NCBI GenBank assembly: GCA_016789495.1
Contig: JAEUOJ010000111.1
Span: forward strand, 1-32,469
Direction: 5' to 3'
Length of the DNA stretch: 32,469 bases
From: Accumulibacter sp.
GTDB taxonomy: Bacteria; Pseudomonadota; Gammaproteobacteria; Burkholderiales; Rhodocyclaceae
The notes under the pieces were generated by a model. It was not told the origin of the DNA and searched no databases. It saw only the letters and a program-made list of their open reading frames with translations. Both the position numbers and the translations under genes were made by a program. Every line of letters begins with the position of its first letter. Within the stretch, counting starts at the first letter, position 1. Below, piece after piece: positions 9,826-18,628 of this stretch.

Positions 9826-10935
9826 TCACTTCAGATTGCGCGCTTGATTCTCGCTAGCCGCCAGCCGGTTCAAGCAATCGATCACTCGACGGCTGCCTTG
9901 TTCCATCGCCTGGATTTGGCGACGGACGGCTTCTACATCACCATTCTGCTTGGCCTCGAGCGCCGCGCGAGCGGACTTGTGCACGTCGACATGTGGCGTC
10001 TCGAGTTCGCGATACCCCGACGCGTGGCTGAAGCAAGTCTTTCCCTCGCCCTCGTAATACCATTTGCCGAGTCGGCAATTGGTATGAGAGGCCAGATTTT
10101 CGGGGTTCAGCGGCTCGAAACCGAAAATTCGTATATAGACATTCAGCTTAAAAACCAGATGATCGACTTTGGCCACTTCGATGAAACTCTTGAGCGCGCT
10201 GTTGGCGATCACTTGCTCCATATCCCGGCTCAAGGTGACCAATTGTTCCATGCTCTCGGTGGCCTGATTGCCGCGTTGGCTGAATTGATCCGCCGCTGAG
10301 GACAGGACATCCATGGCCTGTTTGGCGCTGGTCGAGTTTTGCCGGATACCAACGACCAGCGTGCCAATTTCTTGCGTCGCTTTGGCCGTGCGTTCAGCGA
10401 GTTTCCGGACTTCATCGGCGACAACGGCGAAGCCGCGCCCGGATTCTCCGGCACGCGCTGCCTCGATTGCCGCATTCAGCGCCAACAAGTTGGTCTGGTC
10501 AGCGATTTCATGAATCAATTGCACGATCGAGCTGATTTCATCGACCTGTTTGGCCAAAGTTTCGACTTCTTGTGCCGTGGCGGCGGAATCCTGTGCCAGC
10601 CGCCGCAGGCTCGTGGCAATTTCGGTGGTTGTCCCGCCGCTGGCTACCGCCACGTTGGCCGCTGCTTGCGCTTGGTTTTGTTCCTCTCGCAGCAAAGTGG
10701 CCATGCCGCCCAGACTGAGCTGGGAAGCGACCAAGGACTGGTTGAAGTCGGCCATATGACTGAGCGCTGCGGTAAGTAACTGATTATCTGTATTTTTGTG
10801 GTCGGCGTTGGCGCGAGCGGTGGCCAGTTCGGCGCGAAGCGATTCATTTTCTTGCCGCAGCGCCAGGAATTGCGCTTGCGTCTCGACCAACTGCGCTTGG
10901 CAGGCGCGCAGTGCCTCCTTCGTACGGAAAAACAT
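9826..10935 (-). CDS. Soluble methyl-accepting chemotaxis protein with C-terminal CZB zinc-binding domain
   Basis: A 369-residue cytoplasmic chemoreceptor with no transmembrane segment. Residues 5-60 form a coiled coil ([14 protein letters not shown]). The signalling hairpin spans about 110-250, with the conserved tip [19 protein letters not shown] at 147-165 and [15 protein letters not shown] after it. Residues 255-360 match the chemoreceptor zinc-binding (CZB) domain: [11 protein letters not shown] (His259), [16 protein letters not shown] (Cys287) and [10 protein letters not shown] (His315, His319), the expected 3-His/1-Cys zinc site. CZB domains sense zinc or oxidants such as hypochlorite, through redox of the Cys. 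The start is set at the ATG giving MFFRTKEAL, a usual start for this class; the open frame continues about 100 codons upstream without family similarity. It is divergent from the next chemoreceptor gene. Confidence 0.92.
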
Positions 10936-11453
10936 GATTATTCTTTGCTTGAGTCCGTAAACCGCGGTGAATCGGGAAGGGAGAGTAGCCCCCGCTCGGT
11001 TCGACAGACTAACGTTGTCGAGGGGTTGCTCAACCGAAGAAAAGCCTGCGAAGCGGCGGCCGATTTTAAGCTTAGTGTAGTCAAGGATGGGTTGCCAAGG
11101 ATTTTGAGCGGACAGGACGGAGTGGTGCAACGCCAACAGCAAGTCACTCTTGGAAAGGTGGTTCTCGATGTGGAAAGAGCAGCCGAGAGCGCGTGATTTG
11201 CCTCGTCCTGGACGAGGCGTCCGCATCGGCGGTTCAACCATTAGTCATTAAACGCACCGAGGAGAGTTGCCACCGGGGTGGCCGTTGATCCGAGCAGACC
11301 CGTGACTTTGGTGCGTAGCCCAGGAAATCCATGTTCAGCAAGCTTTGCCCCCATGAAATGAGAGGAGGAATAAACCTGCTATAAATTAGATGGAAAAGTC
11401 TGCTCGAGTCTTCACCACCAACTATTGCCTTGTTTTTGTCGCGAGGAATCAAC
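10936..11453. other. 518-base intergenic region between divergent chemoreceptor genes
   Basis: No credible gene was found. The minus-strand frame of the CZB receptor runs through about 300 bases here but shows no domain or ribosome site. The right side holds an extended -10 promoter for the plus-strand receptor. A purine-rich AGAGGAGG at 11361-11368 resembles a ribosome site but is not followed by a usable start. Confidence 0.5.
11377..11385 (+). promoter_or_regulatory. Extended -10 promoter of the membrane chemoreceptor
   Basis: TGCTATAAA matches the TGnTATAAT extended -10 form. It lies 68 bases before the ATG at 11454. The -35 region is poor, as is common with extended -10 promoters. Confidence 0.45.
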
Positions 11454-13370: not shown

Positions 13371-13440
13371 CCTGAGAAAATAATGGAAAAACGTTGGCGG
13401 AAATCGATACTTGCTCAACCGGTCAGCGACATCCGATAAC

Positions 13441-13452: not shown

Positions 13453-14799
13453 TTGGAACCTGAGACCAGCGCGACCGCGCCCTCGTCCGCCGAACTTGCC
13501 AACAGCATGCGCGTGGGCGACGATGGCCACCAACCCGCGGACTCTTCGCCCGATCGAGGCGATGCCGAACGGGTGAAGCGGGAAAATTCCGGGGATGGCG
13601 AGTCGCTGCCGATGTCCGGTTTACGGGTGATCGATGTTGGGACGTTTCTCGCCGGTCCTTACGCGGCATCGATTCTCGGCGAGTTCGGCGCCGAAATCCT
13701 GAAAGTCGAGCATCCGGTGGCTGGCGATCCGATGCGACGTTTCGGGACCGCCTCGAAGCGCCACGACGCGACCCTGGCCTGGCTTAGCGAGGGCCGCAAC
13801 AAGAAGTCGGTGACCCTGGATCTCCGTCAGCGCGAAGGGGTCGAGCTGTTCCTGAAGCTGGTCGCCAAGTCCGATGTGCTGATCGAGAATTTCCGGCCGG
13901 GGACGATGGAGGAATGGGGTCTTGGCTGGGAGGTGCTGCGGCAGGCCAATCCGGGACTGGTGATGCTGCGCGTCTCTGGATACGGGCAGACCGGCCCCTA
14001 CCGGCGACGGTCCGGTTTCGCGCATATCGCGCACGGTTTCGCCGGCCTGTCGTATCTGGCGGGCTTCCCGGGCGAAACACCGGTAGTTCCGGGTACCGTG
14101 CCTCTCGGCGATTATCTTTCCAGCCTTTACGGAGCCATCGGTATCCTGATTGCCTTACGCCACCGCGAGGCGACCGGAGAAGGCCAGATCATTGACATTG
14201 GCATTTACGAGGCGGTTTTTCGGCAAATGGACGAAATCGCTGCCGCTTACGGCCTCTTCGGCAAGGTACGCGAGCGCGAGGGCGCCGGCAGCTTCGTCGC
14301 CGTGCCGCACGGCCACTTCCGGACGATCGACGACAAGTGGGTGGCGATCGCCTGCACCACCGACAAGATGTTCGAACGCTTCGCGACCGTGATGGGGCAA
14401 CCCGAATTGGCGGCCGCCGACCGCTACGGCAATCAGCGCAAGCGGCTGGCGGCGCGTGACGAGGTCAATCGGCTGGTCATCGCCTGGGTCGGTTCACTGA
14501 CCCGCGAGGAGGTGATGCAGCGCTGCATCGACGGCGAAGTGCCGGTTGGCAAGGTTAACAGCATCGCCGACATCTTCAAGGACCCGCACTTTCAGGCGCG
14601 AGGCAATCTGGCGCGATTGAAGGAAGAAGGGCTCGGTGAAGTGGTGATCCCCGGCGTGGTGCCAACGCTGTCCGAAACACCGGGCCGGATCGCCAATCTC
14701 GGGCCGCCGCTGGGCAACGCCACCTATGAGATTCTCCGCGAGCTGCTCGGTCTGTCGGCGCAGGAAATCCGCCGCTTGCGGCAGCGCAAAATCGTTTGA
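13453..14799 (+). CDS. smtA: Family III CoA-transferase, probable succinyl-CoA:malate CoA-transferase subunit (SmtA-like)
   Basis: A 448-residue CaiB/BaiF (family III) CoA-transferase. About 55 hydrophilic residues precede the domain start [23 protein letters not shown]. Then come the [38 protein letters not shown] and GYGQTGPY blocks. The expected catalytic aspartate, which forms the aspartyl-CoA thioester intermediate, is Asp220 in [15 protein letters not shown]. The protein is clearly paralogous to the next gene, more than half identical by eye through the N-terminal domain. Being a longer/shorter paralogue pair next to mct and mcl suggests the two-subunit succinyl-CoA:(S)-malate CoA-transferase of the 3-hydroxypropionate bi-cycle. 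The smtA label follows size and order only. Another dicarboxylate specificity (itaconate, citramalate, mesaconate) is possible. The TTG start is chosen by its ribosome site. Confidence 0.85.
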
Positions 14800-14819
14800 C
14801 CTCCTCTGCGAGAACCGCC

Positions 14820-16049
14820 ATGACCAGTTCCGATTCCGACGAGGCACGTTTGCCGCTGGCCGGCATTCGTGTCATCGACGCCGCCACGGTGATTGCCGCA
14901 CCGTACAGTGCCAGCATCCTCGGTGAATTCGGCGCCGAGGTGCTGAAGATCGAAAACCCGAAAGGCGGCGACCCGATGCGTTATTTCGGCACCGCCACCC
15001 GCCGCAAGGATACCCTGGCCTGGTTGAGCGAGGCGCGCAACAAGCGCTCGGTGACGCTCGATCTGCATTTGCCTGAAGGCGTCGAGCTGTTCAAGAAGCT
15101 GATCGAGAAGACCGATGTGCTGTGCGAGAACTTTCGTCCCGGCACCCTGGAAAAATGGGGGCTTGGCTGGGAGGTGCTGCGCCGGATCAACCCTGGGCTG
15201 ATCATGTTGCGCGTCACCGGCTACGGTCAAACCGGCCCGTACCGCGACCGCCCCGGTTTCGCGCGCGTCGCTCATGCCGTCGGCGGTATCGCCTTTCTGT
15301 CGGGAATGCCGCGCGGCACGCCGGTGACCCCGGGTTCGACGACGCTTGGCGATTACCTGACCGGCCTCTACGGCTGCATCGGCATCCTGATGGCCTTGCG
15401 TCATCGTCAGCGCACCGGACAGGGTCAGTACATCGACGCGGCGCTCTACGAATCGGTTTTCCGATGCACCGAAGAACTGGCGCCGGCCTACGGCATGTTC
15501 GGCCAGATCCGCGAGCGGCACGGCCCAACGCATAACGATTTCGCCTGTCCGCACGGCCATTTCCCGACCAAGGACGATGGCAAGTGGGTGGCGATTTCCT
15601 GCGTCACCGACAAGCTCTTCGAACGCCTGACGATCGCCATGGGGCGGCCCGAATTGGCCGCACCGCATGTGTATGGCGACCAGAAGACGCGTCTGGAGAA
15701 CCGACACGACGTCAACGAGATCGTCCGTGACTGGTGCGGCTCGCTGCACCGCGAGGATCTGCTCAATCGCTGCTTCGCCGCCGGCGCGCCGGCCGGACCG
15801 CTGAACAGCATCGCCGACATTTTCGGTGACCGCCAGTTTCATTCGCGGCGCAACCTGGTGGCGATCGACGAGCCGGATATCGGCGAAACGGTGATCGTGC
15901 CGTCGGTGCTGCCGCGGTTGTCGGCGACGCCGGGACGGATCAAGCATCTCGGCCCACGCCTCGGCGAACATACCGAAGAAGTGCTCGGCGATCTGCTCGG
16001 CCTGGACGCCGACGAGATCGCCTCCCTGCGCGAGAAGCGCGTCATCTGA
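14820..16049 (+). CDS. smtB: Family III CoA-transferase, probable succinyl-CoA:malate CoA-transferase subunit (SmtB-like)
   Basis: A 409-residue paralogue of the preceding protein without the long N-terminal extension. Domain start [24 protein letters not shown]; shared blocks are [38 protein letters not shown] and [15 protein letters not shown]. The catalytic aspartate is Asp178 in [15 protein letters not shown]. The retained aspartate means both paralogues could be active rather than one being a structural subunit. The C-terminal part has [15 protein letters not shown] and [19 protein letters not shown], usual for the family. The ATG at 14820 follows the previous stop by 20 bases; an in-frame TTG at 14796 overlapping that stop is an alternative. 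Pairing with the previous gene and with mct and mcl supports the Smt assignment. Confidence 0.85.
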
Positions 16050-16075
16050 GGCATCGGTCTGGAGAAAGGCGCTGC

Positions 16076-17296
16076 ATGAACGGTATTCTCAAAGGCTTGC
16101 GCGTCGTCGAAGGGTCGGCGTTCGTCGCCGCGCCGCTCGGCGGCATGACCCTGGCTCAGCTCGGCGCGGACGTGATCCGCTTTGACCCGATTGGTGGCGG
16201 CCTTGACTACGGTCGTTGGCCGCTGACGCTTGACGGCCGGCACAGCCTGTTCTGGGCCAGCCTGAACAAGGGCAAACGTTCGATCGCCGTCGATATGCGG
16301 CAACCGCGCGGCCAGGAGCTGCTGACCCGGTTGATCTGCGCGCCCGGTGATCACGCCGGCCTGTTCAGCACCAATTTCCCGGCCCGCGGCTGGCTGGCGT
16401 ACGACAGCTTGCGGGCGCACCGGCCGGACCTGATCATGGTCAATTTCAGCGGTCGTCGCGACGGTCGCTCCGAAGTCGACTACACCGTCAATCCACAGGT
16501 CGGTCTGCCGCTGATCACCGGCCCGAACTCGTCGCCGGAGCTGGTCAACCGCATTTTCCCGGCCTGGGATTTCATCAGCGGCCAGATGATCGCGCTCGGC
16601 CTGCTCGCCGCCGAACGGCACCGCCGGCTGACCGGCGAAGGGCAACGGGTCAGTCTATCGCTCAAGGATGTCGCCCTGGCGATGGTCGGCAATTTCGGGA
16701 TGATCGCTGAAGTCATGATCACCGATACCGACCGGCCGCGGCACGGCAACTACCTCTACGGGGCTTTCGGTCGCGATTTCGAGACCCTCGACGGCAAGCA
16801 CCTGATGGTCGTTGGGCTGACCACCCGCCAATGGCACTGTCTGATCAAGGCCACCGGACAGAAAGAGACGATGGCCGCCCTGGCCGCGCGGCTCGAGCTG
16901 GATCTCGAAGTCGAAGGCAATCGCTTTCGTGCACGTCGCGAAATCGCCGCCTTGCTCGAACCGTGGTTTTACGCACGCACCCTCGCCGAAGCCAGCCGGA
17001 TTCTCGACGCGCACCGCGTCACCTGGGGGCCGTATCGCAGCCTACGCGAAGCGATCGACAAAGACCCCGATTGCTCGACCGACAATCCGCTGTTTTCGAT
17101 GGTGGAGCAACCCGGCATCGGCGCTTACCTGATGCCGGCGACGCCACTCGATTTCAGCCGCGTGCCGCGTTTGCCGGCGGCGCCCGCCCCGGTGCTCGGT
17201 CAGCACACCGACGAAATCCTGCTCGGCGATCTTGGCCTCAGCGAAGCCGAGGTCGGCCGTCTGCACGACGACGGCGTCGTCGCCGGGCCGGCTTGA
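16076..17296 (+). CDS. mct: Mesaconyl-CoA C1-C4 CoA-transferase
   Basis: A 406-residue family III CoA-transferase that moves CoA within mesaconate, from the C1 to the C4 carboxyl, an intramolecular reaction of the 3-hydroxypropionate bi-cycle. The sequence is strikingly close to my memory of the Chloroflexus enzyme. Matching blocks are LRVVEGSAFVAAPLGGMTLA, QLGADVIRFDPIGGGLDY, DLIMVNFSGRRDG, the DYTVNPQ segment and GNYLYGAFGRDFETLDGK, plus STDNPLFSMVEQPGIGAYLM and HTDEILL. Catalytic Asp165 lies in FPAWDFISGQMIALGLLA. It differs clearly from the two transferases upstream. GGAGAAAGG precedes the ATG at normal spacing. It follows smtB by 26 bases and precedes mcl by 51. Confidence 0.93.
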   Translation: MNGILKGLRVVEGSAFVAAPLGGMTLAQLGADVIRFDPIGGGLDYGRWPLTLDGRHSLFWASLNKGKRSIAVDMRQPRGQELLTRLICAPGDHAGLFSTNFPARGWLAYDSLRAHRPDLIMVNFSGRRDGRSEVDYTVNPQVGLPLITGPNSSPELVNRIFPAWDFISGQMIALGLLAAERHRRLTGEGQRVSLSLKDVALAMVGNFGMIAEVMITDTDRPRHGNYLYGAFGRDFETLDGKHLMVVGLTTRQWHCLIKATGQKETMAALAARLELDLEVEGNRFRARREIAALLEPWFYARTLAEASRILDAHRVTWGPYRSLREAIDKDPDCSTDNPLFSMVEQPGIGAYLMPATPLDFSRVPRLPAAPAPVLGQHTDEILLGDLGLSEAEVGRLHDDGVVAGPA

Positions 17297-17347
17297 ATCC
17301 CACCCGTAGCGGGTCACTTCCCGCCATGACTTCCCGGAGAAATCGCC

Positions 17348-18391
17348 ATGAAACTGCCCGTCCATTTTTACAAGCCGCTGGCCATCGGCGCCCCGCAACC
17401 GCTGCGCGAACTGCCGGTTCGTCCGGAACGGATGATTCATTTCTTTCCCCCGCACATCGAAAAAATCCGCGCCAAGGCCCCGGAGACCGCCCGTCAGTGC
17501 GACGTGATGTGCGGTAATCTCGAAGACGCCATTCCGGTCGAAAGCAAGGAGGCCGCCCGCGCCGGCTTCATCGAACTTCTGGGTCGGCACGATTTCGGCG
17601 ACACCGCGATGTGGGTGCGGATCAACGCCTTGAACAGCCCGTGGGTCCTTGACGATTTGCATGACATCGTCAAACACGTCGGCAACAAGCTCGACGTGAT
17701 CATGATTCCCAAAGTTGAAGGACCGTGGGACATTCATTTCGTCGACCAGTATCTGGCACTTCTCGAAGCGAAATACGCCATCAATAAGCCGATTCTGCTG
17801 CATGCGCTGCTCGAAACCGCGCAAGGCGTGACCAATGTTGAAGCCATCTGCAACGCCAGCCCACGGATGCACGGTCTGAGCCTGGGTCCGGCCGACCTGG
17901 CGGCCTCGCGCGGCATGAAGACCACCCGCGTCGGTGGTGGCCATCCGGGGTATGGCGTGCTCGCTGATCCGGAAGACGGGCAGCCGCGGCGAGCCTTTTT
18001 CCAGCAGGATCTCTGGCATTACACCGTCGCGCGTATGGTCGATGCCGCCACGGCGCACGGTTTGCGGGCGTTTTACGGTCCGTTCGGCGATCTCAAGGAC
18101 GAAGCCGCCTGCGAAGCGCAATTCCGCAATGCCTTTCTGATGGGCTGTACGGGCGCCTGGTCGCTGGCGCCGAATCAGATCGCCATTGCCAAGCGGGTAT
18201 TCAGCCCCGAGGTCAAGGAAGTACTGTTCGCCAAACGGATTCTCGATGCGATGCCCGACGGCAGCGGCGTGGCGACCATCGACGGCAAGATGCAGGACGA
18301 CGCGACCTGGAAACAGGCCAGGGTGATCGTCGATCTGGCCCGGCTGGTCGCCCGCCGCGACCCGGAACTGGCGACGGCCTACGGTTTCTGA
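17348..18391 (+). CDS. mcl: Malyl-CoA / beta-methylmalyl-CoA / citramalyl-CoA lyase (Chloroflexus type)
   Basis: A 347-residue HpcH/HpaI-CitE superfamily lyase. It cleaves malyl-CoA to acetyl-CoA and glyoxylate, condenses glyoxylate with propionyl-CoA to beta-methylmalyl-CoA, and cleaves citramalyl-CoA to acetyl-CoA and pyruvate. N-terminal [20 protein letters not shown] and long internal blocks ([42 protein letters not shown]) match the Chloroflexus lyase as I recall it. So do [20 protein letters not shown] and [13 protein letters not shown]. The Mg ligands are expected at Glu156 (LLETAQG) and Asp183 (GPADLA); Arg91 likely binds glyoxylate. The family length is about 348. GGAGA lies 7 bases upstream of the ATG. 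A small stem (ACCCG/CGGGT at 17302-17314) lies between mct and mcl. It is the last gene of the operon. Confidence 0.94.
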
Positions 18392-18417: not shown

Positions 18418-18439
18418 CCGCCGCTCAATAATGCGGCGG
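18418..18439. repeat. GC-rich inverted repeat between convergent mcl and slyX
   Basis: CCGCCGC (18418-18424), an 8-base loop, GCGGCGG (18433-18439): seven perfect pairs. It begins 26 bases after the mcl stop and overlaps the last codons of slyX. No T-run follows on either strand, so a terminator role is only possible. Confidence 0.45.
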
Positions 18440-18628
18440 AATCTCATCGCGCGGCGTCCGTTGGCCGACATTGGTCTGGCTATCCTGGCACTGGCGGTGC
18501 AACTGGCGTAACTGCGCCTGCAGGCTGTCGATCTGCTGCTGTTGGCGATAGATGGTCAGATTGAGCGCCTCGAGCAAATCCTCGGCCAGACTGATCCGGG
18601 TTTCGACTTCGGTCAGGCGGTGTTCCAT
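18425..18628 (-). CDS. slyX: SlyX family protein
   Basis: A 67-residue coiled-coil protein. RLTEVETRISLAEDLLEALNLTIYRQQQQIDSLQ is the SlyX pattern (heptads with the YRQQQQID core), and the C-terminus PPHY is the usual SlyX ending. SlyX function is unknown; in E. coli it lies beside slyD. The ATG at 18628 has GGAG seven bases upstream; the ATG at 18634 is too close to it. It is the last gene of the minus-strand run behind the metallophosphatase, 63 bases away. Confidence 0.88.
   Translation of the reverse strand: MEHRLTEVETRISLAEDLLEALNLTIYRQQQQIDSLQAQLRQLHRQCQDSQTNVGQRTPRDEIPPHY

Follow-up and report, generated by a model that had tools for sequence, protein, structure and literature searches.

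What is a set of enzymes from the second half of the Chloroflexus 3-hydroxypropionate bi-cycle used for in Accumulibacter? The question is raised by a stretch of 32,469 nucleotides from an Accumulibacter sp. (contig JAEUOJ010000111.1 of assembly GCA_016789495.1, hereafter the window), in which four adjacent genes on the forward strand encode two family III CoA-transferase subunits (Smt-like), a mesaconyl-CoA C1–C4 CoA-transferase (Mct) and a malyl/citramalyl-CoA lyase (Mcl). An earlier note on this DNA had recognized the four-gene operon and its Accumulibacter host, rightly in both cases, and its assignment of the enzymes to the second half of the bi-cycle is borne out by the sequence identities. 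We lean slightly towards the reading that Smt, Mct and Mcl are second-half enzymes in heterotrophic use, which in most of the genus would be fed by the ethylmalonyl-CoA (EMC) pathway.

The enzyme identities are near certain, judging from sequence similarity. The third gene product aligns over residues 1–405 with the C. aurantiacus Mct (8apq, E 2.5e-218), and likewise with the Roseiflexus Mct (7xkg); it scores 797.4 bits over 403 of the 403 positions of NCBIfam TIGR04253, whose cut-off is 725. The source organisms of these structures, and the roles of the residues considered here, which refer to the C. aurantiacus enzyme, are those given in PMC9813914 (papers designated by a PMC number are cited throughout from excerpts). 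The protein from the window keeps Leu43, Arg47, Arg75, Phe101, Arg104, Tyr136 and Asp165, and one checked residue is changed (Ile74 to Met). The nucleophile Asp165 is conserved in all 41 aligned rows, which represent the window and 40 of the 41 mct loci described below; L041 was dropped, its best piece being short. In that locus (10001–11219, genome ACC003), mct is split into two overlapping pieces, by a frameshift or an assembly error.

The fourth gene product matches 6kin over residues 1–347 (E 5.9e-206) and 4l7z, which we take to be the C. aurantiacus malyl-CoA lyase, over residues 2–346 (E 3.2e-199, 664 bits); its score against the Rhodobacter-type malyl-CoA lyase 4l9y is far lower (191 bits, E 3.1e-55). 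The equivalents of Arg92 and Asp318, whose roles in the lyase are described in PMC3832036, are retained. These full-length matches agree with what the earlier note had claimed for both proteins. It had also described the first two gene products as paired, and they are indeed related: the two subunits share 59% identity, against about 30% with Mct, and both have an Asp at the column aligned with the Mct nucleophile. No NCBIfam model scores them over its cut-off. The smtA-like protein is 72–80% identical to the product of the gene in the same position in five Chloroflexota loci, and it is from the gene order common with Chloroflexota loci that we name both subunits, putatively, Smt. Both adjoin mct in 19 of the 41 loci, including Chloroflexota.

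Of 28 genomes of the genus, 27 encode Mct (E 1e-100 or better), against none of 33 genomes from other genera of the family or order. The sole genome of the genus that has no Mct (G008, 93% complete) is, at the thresholds applied, also without a match to Mch, Meh, Ccr or the EMC hydratase. Scanning genome contigs yielded 41 mct loci, 19 of them labelled Accumulibacter and 7 Chloroflexota, the remainder belonging to other Proteobacteria, unnamed Pseudomonadota and Myxococcota. The occurrence of such genes in Accumulibacter is already published (PMC6593406, PMC9813914), as the earlier note stated; it is their context beside EMC genes that we found in no paper of the literature searched.

This EMC operon was outside the view of the earlier note: it stands near mct in many relatives, often divergently oriented, and on another contig here. 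Ccr is encoded in 23 of the 27 Mct genomes of the genus, and neither in the Mct-less one nor in the 33 genomes of other genera. In 16 of these 23 genomes no more than 20 kb separate it from mct (17 when either Ccr or the EMC hydratase is counted), while six have mct and Ccr on separate contigs (G000, G003, G011, G020, G026 and G027); the mct contig of G027 bears at its end a DUF6986 gene and a partial dehydrogenase. The Meh gene and Ccr share a contig in 18 of the 21 genomes having both, 2.3–23.5 kb apart and in at least two layouts. By our own arithmetic, the chance that two given genes fall within 20 kb of each other in a genome of 4.4 Mb is about 1%, a figure to be read knowing that the genomes share ancestry. 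Since several layouts exist, the linkage appears to have survived rearrangement. We found no description of this mct–EMC context in natural genomes in the literature searched, which covers part of the field. McIlroy et al. (2014) are reportedly cited by others for the EMC pathway in Competibacter.

In the window's genome, the EMC operon is on contig C41 and encodes a quinone-type reductase, Ccr, MeaB, an acyl-CoA mutase, a PF19315 hydratase, an acyl-CoA dehydrogenase and a DUF6986 protein. Ccr scores 558 bits (cut-off 378.55); among solved structures, AntE (535 bits) matches it best, followed by crotonyl-CoA reductases (4gi2 at 485). The dehydrogenase scores 586 bits against the (2S)-methylsuccinyl-CoA dehydrogenase 8ciw, 313 against 6es9 (listed as an acyl-CoA dehydrogenase, and presumably another methylsuccinyl-CoA dehydrogenase) and at most 232 against the rest; by its match to 8ciw, we identify it as methylsuccinyl-CoA dehydrogenase. 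The operon as a whole is best read as an EMC pathway, with reservations on the mutase and the epimerase.

Two products of this operon deserve a remark of their own. Ccr (L059:2304–4055, reverse strand) carries a C-terminal pair of CBS domains (PF00571), and the open frames of 584–674 amino acids at all 23 Ccr matches suggest that the pair is a general feature of the enzyme in this genus. Adenine nucleotides are frequent ligands of CBS domains, and it may be that Ccr is regulated by energy charge through them. The DUF6986 protein (PF22484; L059:10069–11520, reverse strand), whose gene is part of the EMC operon in the loci examined, shows a weak likeness to the HpcH/HpaI and malate synthase barrels, and may be a CoA-ester lyase.

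In the route that we propose, the EMC enzymes (Ccr, the mutase and methylsuccinyl-CoA dehydrogenase) would convert acetyl-CoA, or crotonyl-CoA derived from polyhydroxybutyrate (PHB), together with CO2 into mesaconyl-C1-CoA. This metabolite, of which the EMC pathway would be the main source in most of the genus, is common to EMC and Mct–Meh–Mcl and would join the two. Mct would shift the CoA to C4, a Meh-type hydratase encoded elsewhere would hydrate the C4 ester to (S)-citramalyl-CoA, and Mcl would split the latter into acetyl-CoA and pyruvate, so that the net conversion would be that of acetyl-CoA and CO2 into pyruvate, with no C4 dicarboxylate. Propionyl-CoA and glyoxylate could enter at the same point, via Mcl and a C1 hydratase. 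The reactions themselves are known: methylsuccinyl-C1-CoA dehydrogenase gives mesaconyl-C1-CoA, Mct gives the C4 ester, hydration of this ester gives (S)-citramalyl-CoA, and the Chloroflexus lyase forms acetyl-CoA and pyruvate in a reaction where cleavage is favoured (PMC3832036, PMC9813914, PMC5592240, PMC12290011). We infer the substrates in this strain, the direction and flux of the route, and the hydratases that would serve in this genome; the chimeric EMC–Mct route is plausible to likely for the genus and less certain for this genome. Accumulibacter is held to convert polyhydroxyalkanoates into glycogen. A bolder claim is that it naturally runs a reductive citramalyl/ethylmalonyl-CoA route as an oxygen-tolerant, CO2-fixing and carbon-conserving link between storage polymer and glycogen, in which Ccr would carboxylate crotonyl-CoA from PHB or acetyl-CoA, and the mesaconyl-C1-CoA formed further on would, once Mct has moved its CoA to C4, be cleaved to acetyl-CoA and pyruvate; we put this forward tentatively, as somewhat more apt to fail than to hold.

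Several observations speak against an EMC-fed Mct. The EMC operon of the window's genome is on a different contig from mct, and the window, which extends 13 kb upstream of the smt–mct–mcl operon and 14 kb downstream, contains no EMC genes; nor was an orthologous meh found in this genome (87.6% complete), the sole relative being on contig C106. The mutase of the C41 operon scores 530 bits against a methylmalonyl-CoA mutase cut-off of 876, and the solved structures closest to it are those of methylmalonyl-CoA mutases, in a comparison that included no ethylmalonyl-CoA mutase reference. No epimerase exceeds the TIGR03081 cut-off (114.95) in any of the 28 genomes of the genus, 13 of which give weak matches of 44–47 bits, and the EMC route may therefore have a gap at this step; PMC12604563 contrasts Accumulibacter with a Propionivibrio that bears an epimerase. 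Within the genus, Ccr is missing from four of the 27 Mct genomes (G005, G006, G018 and G024); it is also missing from 15 of the 19 genomes behind the other Mct loci, including 7 out of 7 Chloroflexota, and of the four matches among these 19 genomes, that of G065 (Propionivibrio) is partial and under the cut-off. Mct can thus exist without EMC and does not require it everywhere. Isocitrate lyase is encoded in 28 of the 28 genomes of the genus, and there is therefore no obvious need for an EMC–Mct route; for the same reason, the idea that the module replaces the glyoxylate shunt is unsupported. Last, given the shared ancestry of the genomes, the number of independent linkage events is small, and the linkage of mct to EMC genes may have been inherited from few ancestral events.

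The operon in the window lacks mch and meh, a point that does not appear in the earlier note, and no match to mch exists within the window: directly after mcl comes slyX, on the opposite strand, at the place which mch occupies in most relatives. A Chloroflexus-type mch (at least 66% identity to that of Roseiflexus) is present on the same locus in 30 of the 41 mct loci, and at least two of the 11 others (L024 and L028) end at a contig edge near mct or mcl. An mch orthologue (at least 76% identity to the query) occurs in each of the other 26 Mct genomes of the genus, and 25 of them, the exception being G011, have a Meh gene, whose product is 64–70% identical to Roseiflexus Meh among those of the 25 that were scored.

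Judged by mch and meh, the window's own genome, incomplete as it is, does not show the whole second half of the bi-cycle. The search for Mch returned solely a MaoC relative at 31% identity, which is the PF19315 hydratase of the C41 operon. We rejected the idea that this protein specifically stands in for Mch, since it is co-present in 20 of the 26 mch-bearing genomes, in the EMC operon where examined. The relative of Meh on contig C106 was likewise rejected as an Accumulibacter Meh orthologue, since its place in the tree is with genes from five genomes of the order that have no Mct (97/90). Either loss or an assembly gap can explain the absence of mch and meh. G061 (locus L029) keeps smt–mct–mcl without an orthologous mch, and the Competibacteraceae genome G062 has no orthologous mch either; the search that included these two found a relative at 52–79% in five of seven genomes. 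Within the genus the absence is reciprocal: G000 has the EMC hydratase and no mch, and G003 has mch and no EMC hydratase, the reverse of the window's genome. The EMC operon of G003 (L082, 11566–14941) has no PF19315 hydratase, the dehydrogenase match beginning about 26 bases after the mutase match.

How else could these genes be used? The earlier note had suggested that they process propionyl-CoA and glyoxylate. In such a co-assimilation, Mcl, Mch, Mct, Meh and again Mcl would lead from these two substrates to acetyl-CoA and pyruvate, which is compatible with an EMC-fed Mct. The idea gains from the mch orthologues, present in 26 of the 27 Mct genomes, from the Meh gene in 25, of Chloroflexus type wherever checked, from the four Mct genomes that have no Ccr, and from the same use having been proposed for Kentron and, in the same paper, for Chloroflexus (PMC6593406). 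However, the operon here lacks the mesaconyl-C1-CoA hydratase that this conversion needs, the genome has no orthologous Mch or Meh, and the proximity of mct and meh to the EMC operon in many relatives is left unexplained; we find this use rather unlikely. A reduced remnant, or an operon whose mch and meh companions lie in the unassembled part of the genome, is a possibility that we rate a little higher, though still doubtful. A genome in 203 contigs, 87.6% complete, leaves room for it, and G017 offers a precedent, with meh, an mcl copy and mch in a separate block on another contig, mct remaining at the EMC operon. On the other hand, the four frames are open, the checked residues of Mct and Mcl are kept except Ile74 of Mct, and G061 too retains smt–mct–mcl without an orthologous mch.

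That Smt and Mcl alone matter, malate being activated and then cleaved to acetyl-CoA and glyoxylate, would make sense of the presence of both smt-like and mcl genes in the operon, but it does not account for a well-conserved Mct, and several Accumulibacter loci (L005, L006, L013 and L022, for example) have mct–mcl with no adjoining smt; this is very improbable. Some enzymes of the complete autotrophic 3-hydroxypropionate bi-cycle are encoded here, yet the largest acetyl-CoA-synthetase-like frame in the window's own genome, 87.6% complete as it is, has 681 amino acids. None of the five non-Roseiflexus genomes searched has a frame of the size of propionyl-CoA synthase, whereas the Roseiflexus control has one of 1947 amino acids, which we took as propionyl-CoA synthase from its size (the search was for this enzyme, malonyl-CoA reductase lying outside it). 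Because no frame of this size is found, the complete bi-cycle is not supported, and we give it hardly any credence. We keep an EMC-fed, heterotrophic use as our preferred reading for most of the genus.

Phylogenies bear on the origin of the genes. The Mct tree, built from 40 of the 41 loci and the window and rooted by us on L040, unites Chloroflexota, Accumulibacter, some other betaproteobacterial loci and one gammaproteobacterial locus in one clade (100/99), which confirms the link with Chloroflexus; Gamma- and Alphaproteobacteria, Competibacteraceae, Magnetococcales and Myxococcota stand outside, and the deeper branches are proteobacterial or myxococcal. The betaproteobacterial Mct rows cluster at 99/95, and the Mcl and Smt2 trees likewise keep the betaproteobacterial rows together. 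Transfer between phyla, which the earlier note had put forward, is thus likely from trees that unite Accumulibacter and Chloroflexota genes, but transfer out of Chloroflexota is not demonstrated: monophyly of Chloroflexota is not rejected by approximately unbiased (AU) tests (p-AU 0.417 for Mct, 0.156 for Mcl and 0.247 for Smt2), and the three tests neither support nor exclude Chloroflexota as the donor. Chloroflexi probably gained the pathway by transfer too (PMC6593406). Compared with other Accumulibacter, the Mct of the window is 78–83% identical and Mcl 90–93%; a replacement of mct in this genome was considered and dropped, Mct being similarly spread among other Accumulibacter (81% between L003 and L013, for instance).

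More distant loci show Mct homologues in other surroundings. In L033 (7774–11206, marine Gammaproteobacteria), a BhcC-like protein (310 bits, under the cut-off of 690), a PF19315 hydratase and an Mct homologue (60%) are encoded in a row, an arrangement that hints at a use of Mct linked to glyoxylate; the same hydratase–Mct pair is present in L035 (8984–11206, also marine Gammaproteobacteria). In L040 (2501–12814, Gammaproteobacterium SAT1358), a 53% Mct homologue is clustered with a 60% relative of methylsuccinyl-CoA dehydrogenase, a thiolase, an HMG-CoA-synthase-like protein, an SDR, a MaoC/MFE-2 hydratase and an AMP ligase, and is possibly the CoA-transferase of another degradation route.

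Table 1. Coordinates of the smt–mct–mcl operon and the adjacent gene (positions in the window).
Feature	Position	Strand	Remarks
smtA-like, subunit 1 of a putative succinyl-CoA:L-malate CoA-transferase, family III	13453..14799	+	frame opens at 13411; TTG start at 13453 favoured
smtB-like, family III CoA-transferase, subunit 2	14796..16049	+	
mct, mesaconyl-CoA C1–C4 CoA-transferase	16076..17296	+	TIGR04253; PDB 8apq/7xkg; checked residues kept save Ile74 (Met)
mcl, Chloroflexus-type malyl/citramalyl-CoA lyase	17348..18391	+	PDB 6kin, 4l7z
slyX, unrelated gene	18425..18628	-	PF04102, 74.8 bits, 67/67 positions

The window is contig C58 of a draft genome of 3.26 Mb. Its four operon genes (Table 1) are separated by −4, 26 and 51 bases, and the TTG start chosen in the earlier note is preceded by GGAG; a scan of the operon for promoters and terminators gave no signal beyond chance level. 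Ten flank proteins of the window and SlyX have no match in the 41 mct loci, whose flanks extend to at most 10 kb, and the operon is therefore probably at another chromosomal position in this genome than in its relatives. Between 20821 and 24849, on the reverse strand, the window contains two PHO4-type phosphate transporter genes, each paired with a DUF47 (PhoU-like) gene, which fits a polyphosphate accumulator.

If the EMC-fed reading is true, these gene sets would lead directly to pyruvate, with a net uptake of CO2. The carbon and redox models used for phosphorus-removing sludge would then change, and natural enzyme sets would be available for a pathway hitherto designed. The role of EMC transcription in Accumulibacter, unclear in PMC12604563, would become testable; the terms mesaconyl, hydroxypropionate and mct do not occur in the excerpts of that paper.

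How does this system compare with known ones? It resembles the second half of the Chloroflexus bi-cycle (Smt, Mcl, Mch, Mct and Meh) by its full-length Mct and Mcl matches, and Roseiflexus-type loci by the common order smt–smt–mct–mcl. It differs in that the operon here has neither mch nor meh, and that the host has no propionyl-CoA synthase-sized frame but has EMC genes, whereas Ccr was found in none of the seven Chloroflexota genomes searched. With the EMC pathway it shares Ccr, a B12-type acyl-CoA mutase, MeaB, methylsuccinyl-CoA dehydrogenase and a PF19315 hydratase, all in one host operon; the usual end of that pathway is propionyl-CoA and glyoxylate, whereas here Mct would branch off at mesaconyl-C1-CoA, and no epimerase exceeds the cut-off. 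For Ca. Kentron, the excerpts of PMC6593406 do not predict an EMC pathway, unlike what we find here; the likeness lies in most of the bi-cycle being kept, without its key enzymes, by non-autotrophic Proteobacteria, Accumulibacter being named there as a carrier. The reductive citramalyl/ethylmalonyl-CoA pathway (PMC10521678, 2021) is an artificial design, whereas here the candidate route is read from the genes of natural genomes. The designed module (estimated at −39 ± 9 in the free-energy table) uses no ATP directly, with a projected 1.25 ATP for electron transfer, and it takes the same course as the one we propose, from EMC steps to mesaconyl-CoA, citramalyl-CoA, and finally acetyl-CoA and pyruvate.

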